A stretch of 39,538 bases of DNA from Prochlorococcus sp. AG-418-C09 (GTDB taxonomy: Bacteria > Cyanobacteriota > Cyanobacteriia > PCC-6307 > Cyanobiaceae), in the NCBI GenBank assembly GCA_003214355.1, contig QCLS01000010.1, positions 1 to 39,538 on the forward strand, written 5' to 3'. The notes beneath the pieces are model-generated. The model searched no databases and was not told where the DNA came from. It saw only the letters and a list, made by a program, of their open reading frames with translations. Shown here piece after piece: positions 5,965 to 24,305 of this stretch (the first letter of the stretch is position 1; every line of letters starts with the position of its first letter). A program made the position numbers and the translations under genes.

Positions 5965-6552
5965 ATGGCAAATTTAAGTCAACCTCCAAGTAGAAGCACC
6001 CCTAATTTATTGCATATTCTTGAAGCATTTACTGATGAATCAAAAGCAATAGTAAATACAATTGTTGAATTAAATTCAAATACCATAAATAAATATGAAT
6101 TAATTACAGAAACTGGTCATCTCAAATTAGATAGAGTCGGATATTCCTCACTGGCTTATCCTTTCGCCTACGGTTGTATTCCAAGAACGTGGGATGAAGA
6201 TGGCGATCCTTTAGATATTGAGATTGTAAATGTGACTGAGCCACTTATCCCTGGCTCAATTGTGGAAGCAAGAATTATTGGGGTTATGAAATTTGATGAT
6301 GGAGGAGAAGTCGATGATAAGGTAATTGCTGTTTTATCAGATGACAAAAGAATGGATCACATTAAAACTTTTGAAGATTTAGGAGAACATTGGCTTAAGG
6401 AAACTACTTACTATTGGGAGCACTATAAAGATCTAAAGAAACCAGGGACATGCAAAGTCAATGGATTTTTTGGAGTTAATATTGCTCAAGAAGTCATAAA
6501 AGAATGTGAATCGAGATATAAAGAGGAAATTGTTCCCAAGTTAATTGATTGA
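5965..6552 (+). CDS. Inorganic pyrophosphatase, family I, divergent copy with complete active site
   Basis: A 195-residue family I soluble pyrophosphatase with a ~20-residue N-terminal extension. Aligned by eye with E. coli PPase, every catalytic position is kept: E35, K43, E45, R57, Y65 and Y69; the DGDPLD cluster D79, D81 and D84; D111 or D112; a second acidic residue and K119; and the pair Y154-K155. It hydrolyses PPi to two phosphates and so pulls biosynthetic reactions forward. It differs strongly from the cyanobacterial/plastid-type sequence at 21321-21869, and its origin may differ (possible ancient transfer). Because the other copy lacks catalytic residues, this one is probably the working enzyme. 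Its stop is 7 bp from the convergent hemC stop. Confidence 0.9.
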   Translation: MANLSQPPSRSTPNLLHILEAFTDESKAIVNTIVELNSNTINKYELITETGHLKLDRVGYSSLAYPFAYGCIPRTWDEDGDPLDIEIVNVTEPLIPGSIVEARIIGVMKFDDGGEVDDKVIAVLSDDKRMDHIKTFEDLGEHWLKETTYYWEHYKDLKKPGTCKVNGFFGVNIAQEVIKECESRYKEEIVPKLID

Positions 6553-18656: not shown

Positions 18657-20444
18657 TTAATTGTACATTAGTTTTGATTCATAAAGAAACTTCTCTAATA
18701 TATTTCGTCTATGAACTTTAATACTTTTTTTGGTTACTCTAGATATCAACTCAACTTCATTATTGATAGAATCTCTACCAATTACTATTCTGAATGGTAT
18801 ACCAATTAAGTCGGAATCTTTAAATTTTATACCCGCTCTTATATCTCTGTCATCTAGTAGGACATCTATATCATTATTTTTTAATTCAAGATAGATTTCT
18901 TCAGCAAGATTCTTTTGATTCGAATCTTTGATATTAGTTGGAATTAAATTAACTTCAAATGGAGCAATATGGATTGGCCAGCAAATACCATCATCATCAT
19001 GATTTTGTTCGATCGCAGCCTGTGCTAAACGAGTAACTCCTATTCCATAGCATCCCATCCATATATTTTCTAATTTACCCTCTTTATTTGAGAATTTAGC
19101 ATTTAACTTATGACTATATTTTTGTCCTAATTGAAATATATGCCCAATCTCTATACCTCTTTTTTCTATTAGAGTTTCTGTTCCCTTAATAGTAATATAA
19201 TCACCCTGCTTCGAATTCCTTACATCTGCATTTATAAATTTCTGACTCATAGAATTAAATGAATTAATTTTGTGATAATCAATTTTGTTTGCTCCTGTGA
19301 AAAATAAATTCAGATTATTTGCAGAATGGTCAACTATCCTTAACCATGATTTTTGCCAATTGGAATCACTTTTTATTATTGAATCATTAATATCAGGTCC
19401 GATAAAGCCGAAGGGTAAATTATCTAAGTTTTTTTCTGACTCAATATTTCTTTCTATTATTGATAGATTAATTAGACTTTTTTCATACTTGGTATCAACC
19501 AAGTTAAATAACTTCACTTCATTAACCGTCTGATCTCCTCTAATACAAACTAAGATTGGGAGCTGAGAATCGTCATCAAACACCCCTAAAAAAAGAATCA
19601 CCTTTACTATTTGAGTGGAGTCAATTTTATTTTGCTTGCAGACTTCATATACAGATTTCTGATTAGGAGTGAATAATAAATCTTGACTTTGAACCTTTAT
19701 AGGAATCTCTTTGGTTGGAATCGAATTGGCTTTTTCAATGTTTGCAGCATAAGAACCACTTTCCGTGAATAAAATTGAATCCTCACCAGATTCAGCAGTT
19801 ACCATAAATTCTTTCGATGCAGAACCACCAATTGACCCGCTATCAGCATCAACACCAACTGTCTCTAAACCACAATTACTAAATATCTTGATATAGGCAG
19901 TTTCCATTTTTTCATAGAATTGTTTTAAGTCTTCTTCACTTGAGTGAAATGAATAACCGTCTTTCATAATAAACTCTCTACTTCTCATCAGTCCGAATCT
20001 TGGCCTTATTTCGTCTCTGAACTTTGTTTGTATTTGATAGTAACAAATTGGTAGTTGTTTATAAGAAGTTATTATCTCCGAGGCAATAGTTGTTATTACT
20101 TCCTCATGAGTTGGGGCTAAGCCAAAACCTCTATTTTGTCTATCAAGGAGATTAAACATAATACCTTCTCCTGCTGTATAGCTTTCCCATCTACCAGATC
20201 TTTCCCAGAGTTCTGCAGGGTGTAACAAAGGAAGAAGTAATTTATTGCATCCTATACTTTTAAGTTCTTTATCAATAATGGACGATATTTTTTCTATGAC
20301 CCTCAACATTAGAGGCATATATGAATATATCCCTGAGCTAACCCTTCGGATAAAGCCACCTTTTAGTAATAATTGATGAGATACTATTTCAGCCTCTGCT
20401 GGGTTCTCACGAAGGGTCGCCAGAGGGTATGAAGTAGCACGCAT
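18657..20444 (-). CDS. proS: Prolyl-tRNA synthetase, bacterial type with editing insert
   Basis: A 595-residue class II aminoacyl-tRNA synthetase. Order: the N-terminal catalytic part with RVSSGIYSYMPLMLRV, the motif 2 region RPRFGLMRSREFIMKDGYSF, the inserted editing (INS) domain at about residues 225-380, motif 3 (GCYGIGVTRLAQA) and a C-terminal anticodon-binding domain. The frame is open to 20477, but family members begin at the equivalent of MRATSYPLATLRENPAEAE, so the ATG at 20444 is chosen. psb27 follows 33 bp later on the same strand. Confidence 0.96.
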   Translation of the reverse strand: MRATSYPLATLRENPAEAEIVSHQLLLKGGFIRRVSSGIYSYMPLMLRVIEKISSIIDKELKSIGCNKLLLPLLHPAELWERSGRWESYTAGEGIMFNLLDRQNRGFGLAPTHEEVITTIASEIITSYKQLPICYYQIQTKFRDEIRPRFGLMRSREFIMKDGYSFHSSEEDLKQFYEKMETAYIKIFSNCGLETVGVDADSGSIGGSASKEFMVTAESGEDSILFTESGSYAANIEKANSIPTKEIPIKVQSQDLLFTPNQKSVYEVCKQNKIDSTQIVKVILFLGVFDDDSQLPILVCIRGDQTVNEVKLFNLVDTKYEKSLINLSIIERNIESEKNLDNLPFGFIGPDINDSIIKSDSNWQKSWLRIVDHSANNLNLFFTGANKIDYHKINSFNSMSQKFINADVRNSKQGDYITIKGTETLIEKRGIEIGHIFQLGQKYSHKLNAKFSNKEGKLENIWMGCYGIGVTRLAQAAIEQNHDDDGICWPIHIAPFEVNLIPTNIKDSNQKNLAEEIYLELKNNDIDVLLDDRDIRAGIKFKDSDLIGIPFRIVIGRDSINNEVELISRVTKKSIKVHRRNILEKFLYESKLMYN

Positions 20445-20626
20445 TCTAGAAATATGAAAGTATATTAATTTTATCAATCCAAGGTATAAAAAAAATTATA
20501 GTGTCTTGAGTCCCTAAAGGCTTGTAGTTTTGTTTTGTAGTATTTGCTAATTTTTTCAATAACAAAATAAAAAGATTTTAAATCTAAGAAATTCATTCCT
20601 ATTACTGAAAAACGTCTACTAAAACT

Positions 20627-20977
20627 ATGGAAAATAAAGAAGCTGATATTTCAAATTCAGAAGAGTTACTTGGAATTGATGAGGTTCAGAGGTTTCTTAA
20701 TAGATCAAGAGCCTCTGTTTATAGATACACAAATACTGATTTAAGAAATTTAAATCCAAGTTTTAATCCTAGAAAATTAAATCCAGAGTTTAGAAGTGAT
20801 CAGAAAGATCCTTTACTTTTTCATCCTAATGAAATCGCTAGATTCGCTAAAGATATTCTTAGAATCAAAGAGGTTACCGTTGAGATTCTAAATTCCCCTT
20901 CCTCGGCGACTCAGAATGCACTATTAAAAATACTTGAAGAATTAAAGAGTATTAGAATTTTGCTTGAAAAGCAATAA
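20627..20977 (+). CDS. Small protein with excisionase/MerR-like winged helix-turn-helix
   Basis: A 116-residue protein. Residues 13-36 (LLGIDEVQRFLNRSRASVYR) look like the recognition helix pair of excisionase/MerR-type winged HTH proteins. The C-terminal 40 residues are helical and could form a dimerising coiled coil (ALLKILEELKSIRILLEKQ). The 149-bp divergent spacer from proS provides room for its promoter. I recognise no named family. A DNA-binding role is inferred from the HTH-like segment alone. Confidence 0.6.
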   Translation: MENKEADISNSEELLGIDEVQRFLNRSRASVYRYTNTDLRNLNPSFNPRKLNPEFRSDQKDPLLFHPNEIARFAKDILRIKEVTVEILNSPSSATQNALLKILEELKSIRILLEKQ

Positions 20978-21048: not shown

Positions 21049-21079
21049 GAAACTTAATTATTAACAAGAAGCATTCTTG

Positions 21080-21319
21080 ATGGATAGTAATCCAAAAATG
21101 TTAGTACAAACTAATTCTATAAACGAATCTACAATTGCCTCTGAAATTGAAAATGTAGAGAGAGATGACGATGATCCTTTAAGTATTAGGGATTCTTCAA
21201 TAAACTTCTTTGGGATTTTGTTAGCTATTATGACTTTTTTAATACCAACAATTGGAGTATTGTTGGATAGACCATTACCAATAGATAATGGGGTAACTAT
21301 TTCATCATTTCTGAAATAA
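21080..21319 (+). CDS. Small single-pass membrane protein, unknown function
   Basis: A 79-residue ORF starting at ATG 21080 (a TTG directly before it is an alternative). An acidic, soluble N-terminal half (ENVERDDDDPLSIRDSS) precedes one TM helix at about residues 42-61, followed by a short tail. I do not recognise the family. Its stop is 1 bp from the ATG of ppa, so the two are almost certainly co-translated. A competing ORF on the opposite strand spans the same DNA but has no such context. Confidence 0.6.
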   Translation: MDSNPKMLVQTNSINESTIASEIENVERDDDDPLSIRDSSINFFGILLAIMTFLIPTIGVLLDRPLPIDNGVTISSFLK

Positions 21320-21320
21320 G

Positions 21321-21869
21321 ATGGACTTAAGATCAATCCCACCATCACCTATGAAGGGAGTTGTCAATTTAGTTGTTGAGATTCCTGCGGGCAGTAGAAA
21401 CAAATATGAATATAATTCAGAAGCAGGAATTATGGCATTAGATAGGGTTTTACATTCTTCTGTTAGATATCCATTCGACTATGGTTTTATTCCTAATACA
21501 TTGGCTGAGGATGGAGCACCTCTTGATGCAATGATAATTATGGATGAACCCACTTTTGCTGGATGTTTGATTAAAGCAAGGCCCATAGGGGTTTTGGATA
21601 TGAATGACTGTGGTGCATATGATGGCAAGTTATTATGTGTTCCAATTGCTAATCCTAGGCAAAAAAGTATTGTAAGCATTAAGCAAATTGCACCTAATCA
21701 ACTAGAGGATGTTGCTGAGTTCTTTCGGACGAGTAAAGGTTTAGAGGGTAGGACTGTGCATATTGATGGGTGGAGAGACTGCGATGCGGTTGACGAATTA
21801 ATACAAAAATGTAGTAAAAATAAGAAGAAAACTTTTAAAATCCTGAAAAAAACAAAAACTGTAATCTAA
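21321..21869 (+). CDS. ppa: Family I inorganic pyrophosphatase homologue, cyanobacterial type, two active-site residues replaced
   Basis: A 182-residue protein that matches the cyanobacterial/plastid Ppa pattern along its whole length (EIPAGSRNKYEY, LDRVLHSSVRYPFDYGFIPN, DEPTFAGCLIKARPIGVLDM). Numbered against E. coli PPase, E20, K29, E31, R43, Y51, Y55, D65, D70, D97, D102, K104 and K142 are kept. The metal ligand D67 is Ala66 here (codon GCA 21516-21518), and Y141 is Ser138 (AGT 21732-21734). D67 is the general-base-side metal ligand, so PPi hydrolysis should be strongly reduced or absent. The frame is intact, so it is a maintained gene, not an obvious pseudogene. The ArsC-like gene follows after 1 bp. 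Confidence 0.9.
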   Translation: MDLRSIPPSPMKGVVNLVVEIPAGSRNKYEYNSEAGIMALDRVLHSSVRYPFDYGFIPNTLAEDGAPLDAMIIMDEPTFAGCLIKARPIGVLDMNDCGAYDGKLLCVPIANPRQKSIVSIKQIAPNQLEDVAEFFRTSKGLEGRTVHIDGWRDCDAVDELIQKCSKNKKKTFKILKKTKTVI

Positions 21870-21870
21870 A

Positions 21871-22233
21871 TTGAAAAGAATAATAATTTATAGTTACTCT
21901 AAATGTTCTACTTGTAAAAAGGCTATTAATTGGCTAAATGAAAATGGCATTACATTTGATGCTATTGATATAGTTAATACTCCACCATCAAAGGAAGTAA
22001 TAATGAAAGTTCTGCAAGCTTTTCCCGAAAATAAAAAGAAGGTTTTTAATACAGGAGGCAAAAGTTACCGTGAACTAAATTTGAAGGATCTAAATAACTT
22101 ATCTGATAAAGATTTAGTTGAACTTCTTTCAAAAGATGGCAGATTAATAAAAAGACCATTTTTAATATTTGACTTTAATAAATTCCTTCTTGGTTTTAAT
22201 GAAGAAGAATATAAATTAAATTTGAATCAATAG
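21871..22233 (+). CDS. ArsC/Spx family thioredoxin-fold protein
   Basis: A 120-residue ArsC/Spx/YffB-type protein. The N-terminal CSTC (about residues 11-14) follows the first strand, and the family arginine-proline motif is in GRLIKRPFLIF. The full CxxC is more typical of Spx-like redox sensors than of glutaredoxin-dependent ArsC, but family function cannot be fixed from sequence. It could be an arsenate reductase, a transcription-associated redox switch, or neither. Translation starts at TTG 21871, 1 bp after the ppa stop. lepB follows 22 bp later. Confidence 0.75.
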   Translation: MKRIIIYSYSKCSTCKKAINWLNENGITFDAIDIVNTPPSKEVIMKVLQAFPENKKKVFNTGGKSYRELNLKDLNNLSDKDLVELLSKDGRLIKRPFLIFDFNKFLLGFNEEEYKLNLNQ

Positions 22234-22255: not shown

Positions 22256-22930
22256 ATGAAAACATCAATTAGAGAAGTCATAAAGGAATGGACCCCACTG
22301 ATACTTATCGCATTATTTATTTCTTCATGCAGATCATTTATTGCTGAGCCAAGATATATACCTTCTGGTTCAATGTTACCTGAATTGCAAATAAACGATA
22401 GACTAATAATTGAGAAATTCATTTTAAGAAATAGAGATCCTAATCGAGGAGAAATTGTCGTATTTAATTCACCTTATTCTTTTGATGAGGAATTAATATC
22501 TGATAGAGATGAACAATTACCTTCAAGATTGAGCTGTTTCTTTATGGGGTTTCCACCTATGTCAATTATTCCTGGTCTAAGTGATAAAGCTTGCGATGCC
22601 TACATAAAAAGAGTTGTCGCTTTACCTGGAGAGTTAGTTAGTGTAAATAATCTAGGAGAGGTATTTATTAACAACGAGAAACTTGATGAACCCTATGTAA
22701 CTAGCTTTTGTAAGGAGGGTTTTTTTGGAAACTGTGGTCAATTTCAGAATATAATAGTACCTGAAGATCACTTCCTAGTACTTGGAGATAATAGATCAAA
22801 TAGCTGGGATGGCAGATTCTGGCCTGGTGGTAAGTTTTTACATAAAGATGAGATAATTGGTAAAGCTTATTTTAGATTTTGGCCTTTAAAGGATTTTGGT
22901 TTTTTTAGTATCCCAATAAATATGAAATGA
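22256..22930 (+). CDS. lepB: Signal peptidase I (leader peptidase)
   Basis: A 224-residue type I signal peptidase that cleaves Sec/Tat signal peptides on the periplasmic/lumenal side. One N-terminal TM segment lies at about residues 13-30. The catalytic serine is S39 in PSGSM and the general-base lysine is K118 in AYIKRVVALPGE. GDNRSNSWDGRFW is the C-terminal signature. Two additional cysteine-bearing loops (C94/C113 and the CKEGFFGNC segment) could form disulfides. It is the last gene of the HTH-to-lepB plus-strand run. Confidence 0.95.
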   Translation: MKTSIREVIKEWTPLILIALFISSCRSFIAEPRYIPSGSMLPELQINDRLIIEKFILRNRDPNRGEIVVFNSPYSFDEELISDRDEQLPSRLSCFFMGFPPMSIIPGLSDKACDAYIKRVVALPGELVSVNNLGEVFINNEKLDEPYVTSFCKEGFFGNCGQFQNIIVPEDHFLVLGDNRSNSWDGRFWPGGKFLHKDEIIGKAYFRFWPLKDFGFFSIPINMK

Positions 22931-22973: not shown

Positions 22974-24305
22974 TCATAAAGCACCTGAAGCAGTTGAATC
23001 AATAACGCTTCCGAGATGGGTAGTTATATTTAGAGCACTAATTACACTATCTTTATTCTTATCGGAGAAAATATCTATAACTGTGATACCTCCATTACCT
23101 TGCTTTATCATCCATATATCTGAAGAATTTAGGCCTAGGATATGGCATAAAAGTGTTTTATTTACTGCATCATGAGCAACTAGCAAGGTAATATCACCTG
23201 GATTTTGAGATTCACAGATATCGCTCCATGCTAAGACCGATCTTTTTGAAACCGCATCTATTGATTCTCCTTCTGGCATTTCGACTTTCTCTGGAGTTTG
23301 ATGCCAAGATCTAAGTAATTCAGGCCATTTCTCCTTTATTTCTTTTTCTAATTTTCCCTCCCATAGCCCATGACTTATTTCAACTAACTTATCAACCTTT
23401 TCTATTTTTAACTTTTTATAATTTTTGATAATAATTTCTGCCGTTTCATAAGGCCTATTCATTGAGCTTGAATAAACTTTATTGAAATTAATATTCTTAA
23501 GAAATTCAGATGCTTTTTGAGCTTGATCCTTTCCATTCTGATTTAAGGGGATATCAATCTGACCTTGAAAACGACCTTCTTTATTCCAGTTAGTTTCCCC
23601 ATGCCTAACCAAGATTATTCTAGAATCACCAATCTGGCCTGGAATATTTTTTTGTAAATGTGAAGTCTGATTAAGGCACTCAACCTGATTCTTAAACATT
23701 CCTTTTTGATTATTGGCAATATTTAATATTGATATTGATGCATTGTCTAACTTTATTCTTCTGAATCCTTTCGCAGGTTTATTAATTAAAGAGAGGATTA
23801 GGCACCTTAGTATTGCATTATGTGCAATTACAAGAATATTTTTATTTTCAGTACTTTTTTGAATATTTAAAATATTCTCTATAAATCTATCCGCCTGAGA
23901 GAAAAGATCCTTAATAGGATAGTAAATTTCATGAGTCTTATCTTCTATCGATAGATCTTCAGGATTTGATTTCCAAGTTTTATATTGCTCGGGGTATTTT
24001 TTTTTAATTTCTTCGAAAGTAAACCCAGACCAGGTTTCTAGGTTAACTTCCATTAGATTTTCATCGATTTCAATAGGTGTTTTATTTTTAAAACATTTTT
24101 GTATGGTTGTAGCAGTCTCTGAGGCTCTTACTAAAGGGGAAGAGTATATTTTCTCAAATTTTATATCTTTTAAAACAGTTCCAGCAAGTTCAGCTTGTTT
24201 ATAACCTTCCTCAGTTAAATAAGAATCATTTGTTCTTCCTTGAATTAATCCATTTTTGTTGAAGCTACTCAAACCATGTCTTACTAAAACTAAACGCAGA
24301 ATCAT
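22974..24305 (-). CDS. Two-domain histidine phosphatase (phosphoglycerate-mutase-like superfamily)
   Basis: A 443-residue protein with two complete histidine-phosphatase domains in tandem. Domain 1 has VRHG with H10, the acidic EVNLETWSG near 86-94, and the second His H162 (VIAHNA). Domain 2 has VRHGETNW with H235, EISHGLWEG, and VAHDA near 388. Both keep the RHG nucleophile and the partner histidine, so both could be active. Substrate is unknown. Cyanobacterial relatives are variously annotated as phosphoglycerate mutase, alpha-ribazole phosphatase or phosphoserine phosphatase. It is divergent from the CPBP protease with a 106-bp spacer holding a strong inverted repeat. Confidence 0.85.
   Translation of the reverse strand: MILRLVLVRHGLSSFNKNGLIQGRTNDSYLTEEGYKQAELAGTVLKDIKFEKIYSSPLVRASETATTIQKCFKNKTPIEIDENLMEVNLETWSGFTFEEIKKKYPEQYKTWKSNPEDLSIEDKTHEIYYPIKDLFSQADRFIENILNIQKSTENKNILVIAHNAILRCLILSLINKPAKGFRRIKLDNASISILNIANNQKGMFKNQVECLNQTSHLQKNIPGQIGDSRIILVRHGETNWNKEGRFQGQIDIPLNQNGKDQAQKASEFLKNINFNKVYSSSMNRPYETAEIIIKNYKKLKIEKVDKLVEISHGLWEGKLEKEIKEKWPELLRSWHQTPEKVEMPEGESIDAVSKRSVLAWSDICESQNPGDITLLVAHDAVNKTLLCHILGLNSSDIWMIKQGNGGITVIDIFSDKNKDSVISALNITTHLGSVIDSTASGAL

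Follow-up and report, generated by a model that had tools for sequence, protein, structure and literature searches.

The window analyzed, i.e., the whole stretch of 39,538 nt, corresponds to positions 1 to 39,538 of contig QCLS01000010.1 of Prochlorococcus sp. AG-418-C09 (assembly GCA_003214355.1). The gene located at 21321–21869 (forward strand) represents an open reading frame of 182 amino acids featuring an ATG start codon and no internal stop codon, and its product matched the inorganic pyrophosphatase (PPase) profile PF00719 with an E-value of 4.3e-48 (163.4 bits, cut-off 23.5). Based on this match, an alignment and an AlphaFold2 model, it was classified as a family I PPase of the native cyanobacterial lineage carrying the replacements D67A and Y141S, and as a candidate pseudo-PPase. 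Directly upstream lies a poorly conserved open reading frame of 80 amino acids (21077–21319, forward strand), preceded by the gene for a conserved 116-amino-acid neighbor, here designated c116 (20627–20977, forward strand), which resembled HTH_17 only weakly in the profile search, scoring under the Pfam threshold. A divergently oriented upstream gene on the reverse strand (18657–20477), which we take to be proS from its translation, forms the conserved left border of the locus according to the locus comparison. Downstream, family profiles identified an ArsC/Spx/MgsR-type protein (21871–22233, forward strand), starting one base past the PPase stop, and signal peptidase I (lepB; 22256–22930, forward strand). 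The adjacent region (22974–24305) encodes a single chain of 443 amino acids that contains two histidine-phosphatase stretches, scoring above the cut-off of the alpha-ribazole phosphatase model and below that of the PspA model.

Catalytic positions were numbered according to E. coli PPase, whose sequence is identical to PDB entry 4um4. In the alignment, 12 of the 14 positions checked are kept in the altered PPase (E20, K29, E31, R43, Y51, Y55, D65, D70, D97, D102, K104, and K142), while D67 is replaced by Ala66 and Y141 by Ser138, exactly as an initial annotation, made from the sequence alone, had proposed. Ala66 (codon GCA, 21516–21518, forward strand) is embedded in the metal cluster D-G-A-P-L-D (residues D64-G65-A66-P67-L68-D69; 21510–21527, forward strand), and Ser138-Lys139 (21732–21737, forward strand) takes the place of the Tyr141-Lys142 pair. 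The cluster departs from the active-site signature of family I PPases, D-(S/G/N)-D-P-ali-D, as given in PMC8900733. The protein agrees with family I in profile and fold but lacks the full catalytic set. At the position of E98 it carries Cys; Glu was found there in none of 57 outgroup PPases (54 from the same class and three from other classes of the phylum) and in none of 142 sequences of the second PPase type described below. An AlphaFold2 model computed from a 40-sequence alignment adopted the family I PPase fold (pLDDT 88), with low confidence for the lysine-rich tail from residue 170 onward, and was similar to Thermococcus PPase 3i98 (Z 27.6, 171 residues, rmsd 1.5) and to E. coli PPase (Z 25.5).

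A second family I PPase of 195 amino acids, probably the working enzyme, is encoded in the same window 15 kb upstream of the altered PPase (5965–6552, forward strand), adjoining hemC, rpoD, and priA. It matched PF00719 with all 14 catalytic positions intact, its best PDB chain being 5tea, and shares 35% identity with the altered PPase over about 160 residues. A PF00719 search of the genome (1.6 Mb, 32 contigs, 95% complete) retrieved two genes, both inside the window; the matches of both to NCBIfam equivalog models remained below the cut-off. The membrane H+-PPase (PF03030) and the family II PPase (PF02833) yielded no match in this genome, an absence that is not absolute at 95% completeness, and on this basis both were rejected as the working enzyme. 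Housekeeping hydrolysis of pyrophosphate (PPi) is probably performed by the second PPase. Neither this intact gene nor the family-wide loss of D67 reported below had been part of the initial annotation, although its mention of duplicate PPases in marine picocyanobacteria was borne out; most genomes of the family carry two PF00719 genes.

The distribution of both types was evaluated for 201 genomes of the family, which represent 59 genera and were sampled evenly out of a larger set. Matches with an E-value below 1e-60 were regarded as native orthologues of the altered PPase, and those below 1e-70 as second-type PPases. Native orthologues were present in 139 of the 201 genomes. For 50 others, the best match to the native query was weak (1e-15 to 1e-28), i.e., obtained through the second type, with two of these genomes (G098 and G160) showing an additional weak match, possibly to a fragment; the remaining 12 gave no match to the native query. 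Because 32 of the 50 second-type-only genomes are at least 95% complete, the absences of the native gene can hardly be explained by assembly gaps. All ten members of one genus (g6) fall into this group. The second type was detected in 183 of the 201 genomes, and the other 18 are all less than 90% complete. In many genomes, the native and second PPase genes are located on the same contig, separated by roughly 15–28 kb. Within the phylum sample (292 genomes), same-class genomes outside the family that had a match (103 by subtraction) carried one PF00719 match each, and two matches occurred in two of the ten matching genomes from other classes; the order sample consisted of this family alone (61 of 61 genomes).

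Scanning with the second type revealed 473 relatives in the genome collection, of which the best 80 were retained; these originated from Cyanobium, Vulcanococcus, Synechococcus, Aphanothece, Microcystis elabens, Prochlorococcus, and cyanobacterial MAGs. Among 40 of these best 80 genomes searched with PF00719, 21 harbored two or more genes (MED650 three) and 19 a single one. Two or more were found in the four Prochlorococcus, Synechococcus AG-670-B23, MED650, BSA11S, WH 5701, and three Vulcanococcus, and a single gene, among others, in Cyanobium N.Huapi 1H5, Cruz-8D1, and Aljojuca 7A6, as well as in BO 8801, two Aphanothece, CCY 0621, and CCY 9618, the latter two being listed as isolates from Dutch lakes in PMC10161378. 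Loss of the native PPase looks common in freshwater lines, while its retention is not purely marine (Vulcanococcus limneticus, a lake form by name). According to PMC4734447, an inorganic PPase belongs to the 46 orthologue groups that only Prochlorococcus and marine Synechococcus possess and that freshwater Synechococcus lacks; such a PPase group would be consistent with the second type.

The genomic context of the native gene is conserved. Among 77 native loci with flanking sequence (some genomes being represented twice), 76 feature c116 before the PPase and the Spx/ArsC-type gene after it, with proS (tentative name) and lepB also present wherever the sequence reaches. The single exception, G049, showed no neighbor match. 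Across the 76 loci, leaving aside the two entries of the window itself, identity to the copy in the window amounted to 69–88% for the PPase and 33–53% for the Spx-type gene; for c116, which has no Pfam match above the cut-off, it ranged between 71% and 84%. In the 30 outgroup loci compared, the neighborhood was unlike that of the family, c116 alone occurring in one. All 22 genomes lacking the native PPase that were checked contain c116, with proS adjacent to it in 21 of them. Within roughly 1.5 kb on the 3' side of c116, no PPase was detected in 20 of these 22, and in L351 there is no downstream sequence. The remaining one, Cyanobium sp. FGCU6 (L349), carries fragments of a PPase, still reading D-G-S-P, at the expected place after c116, and this remnant appears to be an altered PPase in decay. 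Several lineages thus dispense with the gene, so that its role is non-essential.

The replacement of D67 extends across the family: position 67 is Ala in 101, Ser in 36, Cys in one, and Asp in one of the 139 native sequences, so that D67 is replaced in 138 of the 139. Given this number of genomes, a sequencing error or a loss in a single lineage was ruled out. Likewise, 18 native copies from named genomes carry Ala (14) or Ser (4). Asp is invariant at this position in the 57 outgroup PPases and in 142 second-type sequences (50 from the sampled genomes and 92 from named loci, with some genomes in both sets), whose active site is unaltered throughout, including in genomes lacking the native PPase. 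Y141 is replaced by Ser in all ten genomes of the window's genus and only there; the other genera carry His in 11 and Asn in one, and Tyr is kept in 117 of the 139 sequences. K142 is Lys in 120, Arg in 17, and Gln in two. The residue loss noticed in the initial annotation is therefore real, but for D67 it is neither recent nor local; since the D67 loss is family-wide and Y141S confined to one genus, the two differ in age. The former is ancient and the latter a later, genus-level addition.

Other parts of the active site are largely preserved in the native sequences. No substitution was seen at E20, K29, Y51, D65, D70, D102, or K104 in any of those that have a letter there, and R43, Y55, D97, and E31 are kept in 96% or more. 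At least 95% conservation was reached by 11 of the 14 catalytic positions, compared to 71 of all 171 columns (hypergeometric P 0.004). In five native copies (L104, L106, L107, L114, and L116), E31 is replaced by His, Ser, or Val, which represents further erosion in some lineages. No compensating acid for D67 emerged when every alignment column was scanned for a newly fixed Asp or Glu. Residue 76 is the sole column that is nearly always Asp or Glu in the natives and clearly less often in the outgroups, 44% of which are already acidic there. In 72 of the 139 genomes, the codon at position 67 is GCT or GCC and a single base change away from Asp, yet Asp was found in G049 only, an observation in favor of the pseudoenzyme reading presented below.

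The phylogeny supported the native origin of the altered PPase. In a mixture-model tree of 47 sequences (27 of the 139 natives and 20 of the 57 outgroups), the 27 natives formed one clade (support 100/99, stem length 0.73) within the cyanobacterial PPases, in line with the family assignment of the initial annotation. This smaller tree was built because a quick tree of 123 sequences had given warnings of long branches meeting; the quick tree included 85 of 126 natives (truncated G124 and G174 left out, with a limit per genus) and, with these warnings, agreed on the native clade (98). G049, represented by a single draft assembly (L095 and L203), retains D67 and carries Thr in place of R43; its copy lies outside the usual locus and is 58% identical to that of the window. 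In the best tree it was sister to all other natives with weak support (74/70). With the caution due to a single draft assembly, G049 may represent an early-diverging copy impaired by a different change. The second type was placed on a long branch apart from the cyanobacterial PPases in the quick tree, which was rooted on the second type by choice and contained few non-cyanobacterial sequences. Based on this long branch and on the single PF00719 gene of other cyanobacteria, the second PPase would have been acquired from outside, or it may be an ancient duplicate lost elsewhere. As to a donor, the plasmid collection provided matches of at best about 42% identity (top match from Neisseria at 41.6%, one shorter match at 41.9%).

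Selection was analyzed with the codon model GY+F3X4 in three genera comprising 27 genomes, leaving out G174 and one g5 genome missing the second-type sequence. Omega for the native gene was 0.026 in the window's genus (g1, ten genomes), 0.039 in g34 (nine genomes), and 0.046 in g5 (eight genomes), with the second PPase of these genomes giving 0.025, 0.013, and 0.016, respectively; these values are rough, since synonymous changes may be near saturation. Constraint on both genes is equal in the window's genus, whereas the native gene is about three times looser in g34 and g5. Fixing omega at 1 (kappa fixed at 2) for the native gene of the window's genus lowered the log-likelihood from -2062 to -2441, a cost of 379. 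Purifying selection on the native PPase is not in doubt. The initial annotation had called for such a dN/dS comparison and had regarded the gene, with its intact frame, as maintained rather than decaying, a view that these results uphold.

Taken together, the native PPase combines loss of a catalytic residue across its orthologues (138 of 139) with maintenance by selection, as expected for a pseudoenzyme. We consider it slightly more probable than even (roughly 0.5) that it is a displaced PPase turned pseudoenzyme, binding Mg-PPi with little hydrolysis and serving a non-catalytic role. In an early ancestor of Prochlorococcus, Synechococcus, and Cyanobium, a second, unlike family I PPase would have become established and taken over PPi hydrolysis. 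The inherited PPase, freed of that duty, would then have lost D67, with Ala or Ser becoming fixed, a loss tolerable because of the intact PPase in the same cell, and its remaining Mg2+ and two-phosphate ligands would have stayed under strong selection. Because the other ligand residues are kept while D67 is lost, folding, assembly, and binding of Mg-PPi are most likely preserved in the altered PPase, which would hydrolyze PPi very slowly or not at all. It may act as a PPi-responsive protein, in keeping with the PPi-binding regulator considered in the initial annotation, by sensing or buffering PPi or by presenting it to a partner, sensing or buffering presumably being the simplest use. Displacement followed by retention is best supported, since D67 was lost amid kept ligands in the presence of an intact PPase. 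Against this reading count the dispensability of the gene in several lineages, its faster evolution relative to the second PPase in two of the three genera, and the retention of D67 (with T43) in G049. Furthermore, the binding site itself drifts in places, as Y141 and K142 vary and E31 is lost in five sequences.

The main rival to the pseudoenzyme reading, a distinct possibility although we would not bet on it, is that the altered PPase is still a hydrolase, either slow, as the initial annotation had also suggested, or re-targeted to another phosphoanhydride or metal, the space of the lost Asp serving a new substrate or water path. From work on the E. coli and yeast enzymes, D67 helps to prepare the nucleophilic water, and its loss costs activity. 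PMC6770254, however, favors an attacking water that may come from solvent outside the canonical site, so that more activity without D67 is conceivable. The same paper places Asp68, the equivalent of D67, among the residues coordinating cations or PPi, so that PPi binding may suffer as well. Continued hydrolysis would agree with the largely kept metal and phosphate ligands, with the two PPases of the window's genus being under equally strong selection, and with a re-tuned site, to which changes nearly fixed relative to the outgroups would fit (residues 70 G to A, 80 P to A, 102 E to G, and 144 K to R, in 89–100% of the natives). It is harder to reconcile with the lost Asp being part of the signature D-(S/G/N)-D-P (PMC8900733) and present in all 199 outgroup and second-type sequences, while the natives, G049 apart, carry only the small uncharged Ala, Ser, or Cys there and no fixed substitute acid.

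A role as regulatory subunit in mixed hexamers with the second PPase 15 kb away, a form of the partner subunit raised by the initial annotation, seems improbable. Both proteins belong to family I, for which PMC8900733 describes hexamers in E. coli and other bacteria, and the two genes share one contig in many genomes. Nevertheless, the partners are only 35% identical in the window's genome, and the second type occurs without a native PPase in many genomes (50 of the 201, including the 32 nearly complete ones and the whole of g6), retaining its unchanged active site in all 142 sequences, native-less genomes included; these findings disfavor a joint complex. That the retained copies are decaying relics is highly improbable: several lineages lack the gene and the copy of Cyanobium sp. 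FGCU6 is broken, but omega values of 0.026–0.046 and a PPase identity of 69–88% across the flanked loci (58% in G049), against 33–53% for the gene directly downstream, do not resemble decay.

Returning to the pseudoenzyme reading, a more specific version of it would be a natural substrate trap, arisen after the takeover, that binds uncut Mg-PPi and signals its level in the cell to a partner, perhaps the Spx-type neighbor; in this detailed form it is rather unlikely. The Spx-type protein (21871–22233) is a candidate partner by analogy, its relatives binding RNA polymerase, and is poorly conserved (33–53%); gene-neighbor association is no proof of function. A promoter and terminator scan around the locus revealed no excess over shuffled sequences. 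The small RNAs Yfr1 and Yfr10 are reported to bind ppa of MED4 (PMM0494) in PMC6778093. For Yfr1-type target sites near either PPase, six matches with at most two mismatches were obtained compared to 14 expected, none being located at either gene start. A phage origin or carriage of the PPase was rejected: 20 pattern matches in viral_contigs yielded no confirmed relative, and ten phage records reached only 35–38% identity.

PPi is a by-product of biosynthetic polymerization, and to our knowledge PPi sensors are hardly known; a dedicated PPi-binding protein in bacteria would, if confirmed, be a rare find. Picocyanobacteria such as Prochlorococcus are among the most numerous photosynthetic cells on Earth. 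The PF00719 score invites the label 'inorganic pyrophosphatase' for the altered PPase, and if it is a pseudoenzyme, phosphorus and energy models of these abundant marine phototrophs that count it credit the wrong gene. The family also provides a natural experiment, in which a resident enzyme was seemingly displaced by a second one and thereafter retained by some lineages but deleted from others. A paper in FEBS J from 2007 is said to deal with cyanobacterial PPases. Among the papers listed by the literature searches, which covered subscription papers poorly, no description of a degenerate or duplicate picocyanobacterial PPase was recognized, so that an earlier remark may exist, and no paper was found for locus tags PMM0507-0511. 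PMC9361551 includes one ppa in its list of picocyanobacterial phosphorus genes and, as far as its accessible sections go, the ppa mentioned in PMC7332688 is that of Synechocystis only.

Compared to cyanobacterial Ppa, the family I PPase defined by PF00719, the altered copy is alike in fold, length, 12 of the 14 catalytic positions, and vertical descent. It differs by Ala or Ser at the second Asp of D-x-D-P, by Ser for Tyr141 in the window's genus, and by not being the sole PPase of the cell. With pseudoenzymes residing beside an active paralogue, it shares the family-wide catalytic loss, the kept ligands, and the purifying selection; however, the active enzyme is here a distant family member instead of a sister duplicate, and partner and ligand are putative. 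The altered PPase also resembles the substrate-trap mutants of phosphatases that are made on purpose. None of the 50 PDB entries listed for the fold matches is titled as a D67 variant. The engineered E. coli PPase variants (1mjw D42N, 1mjx D65N, 1mjy D70N, 1mjz D97N, and 2au7 R43Q) are similar in that one active-site residue is changed while the fold is kept, whereas the change described here is natural, ancient, and located at D67.
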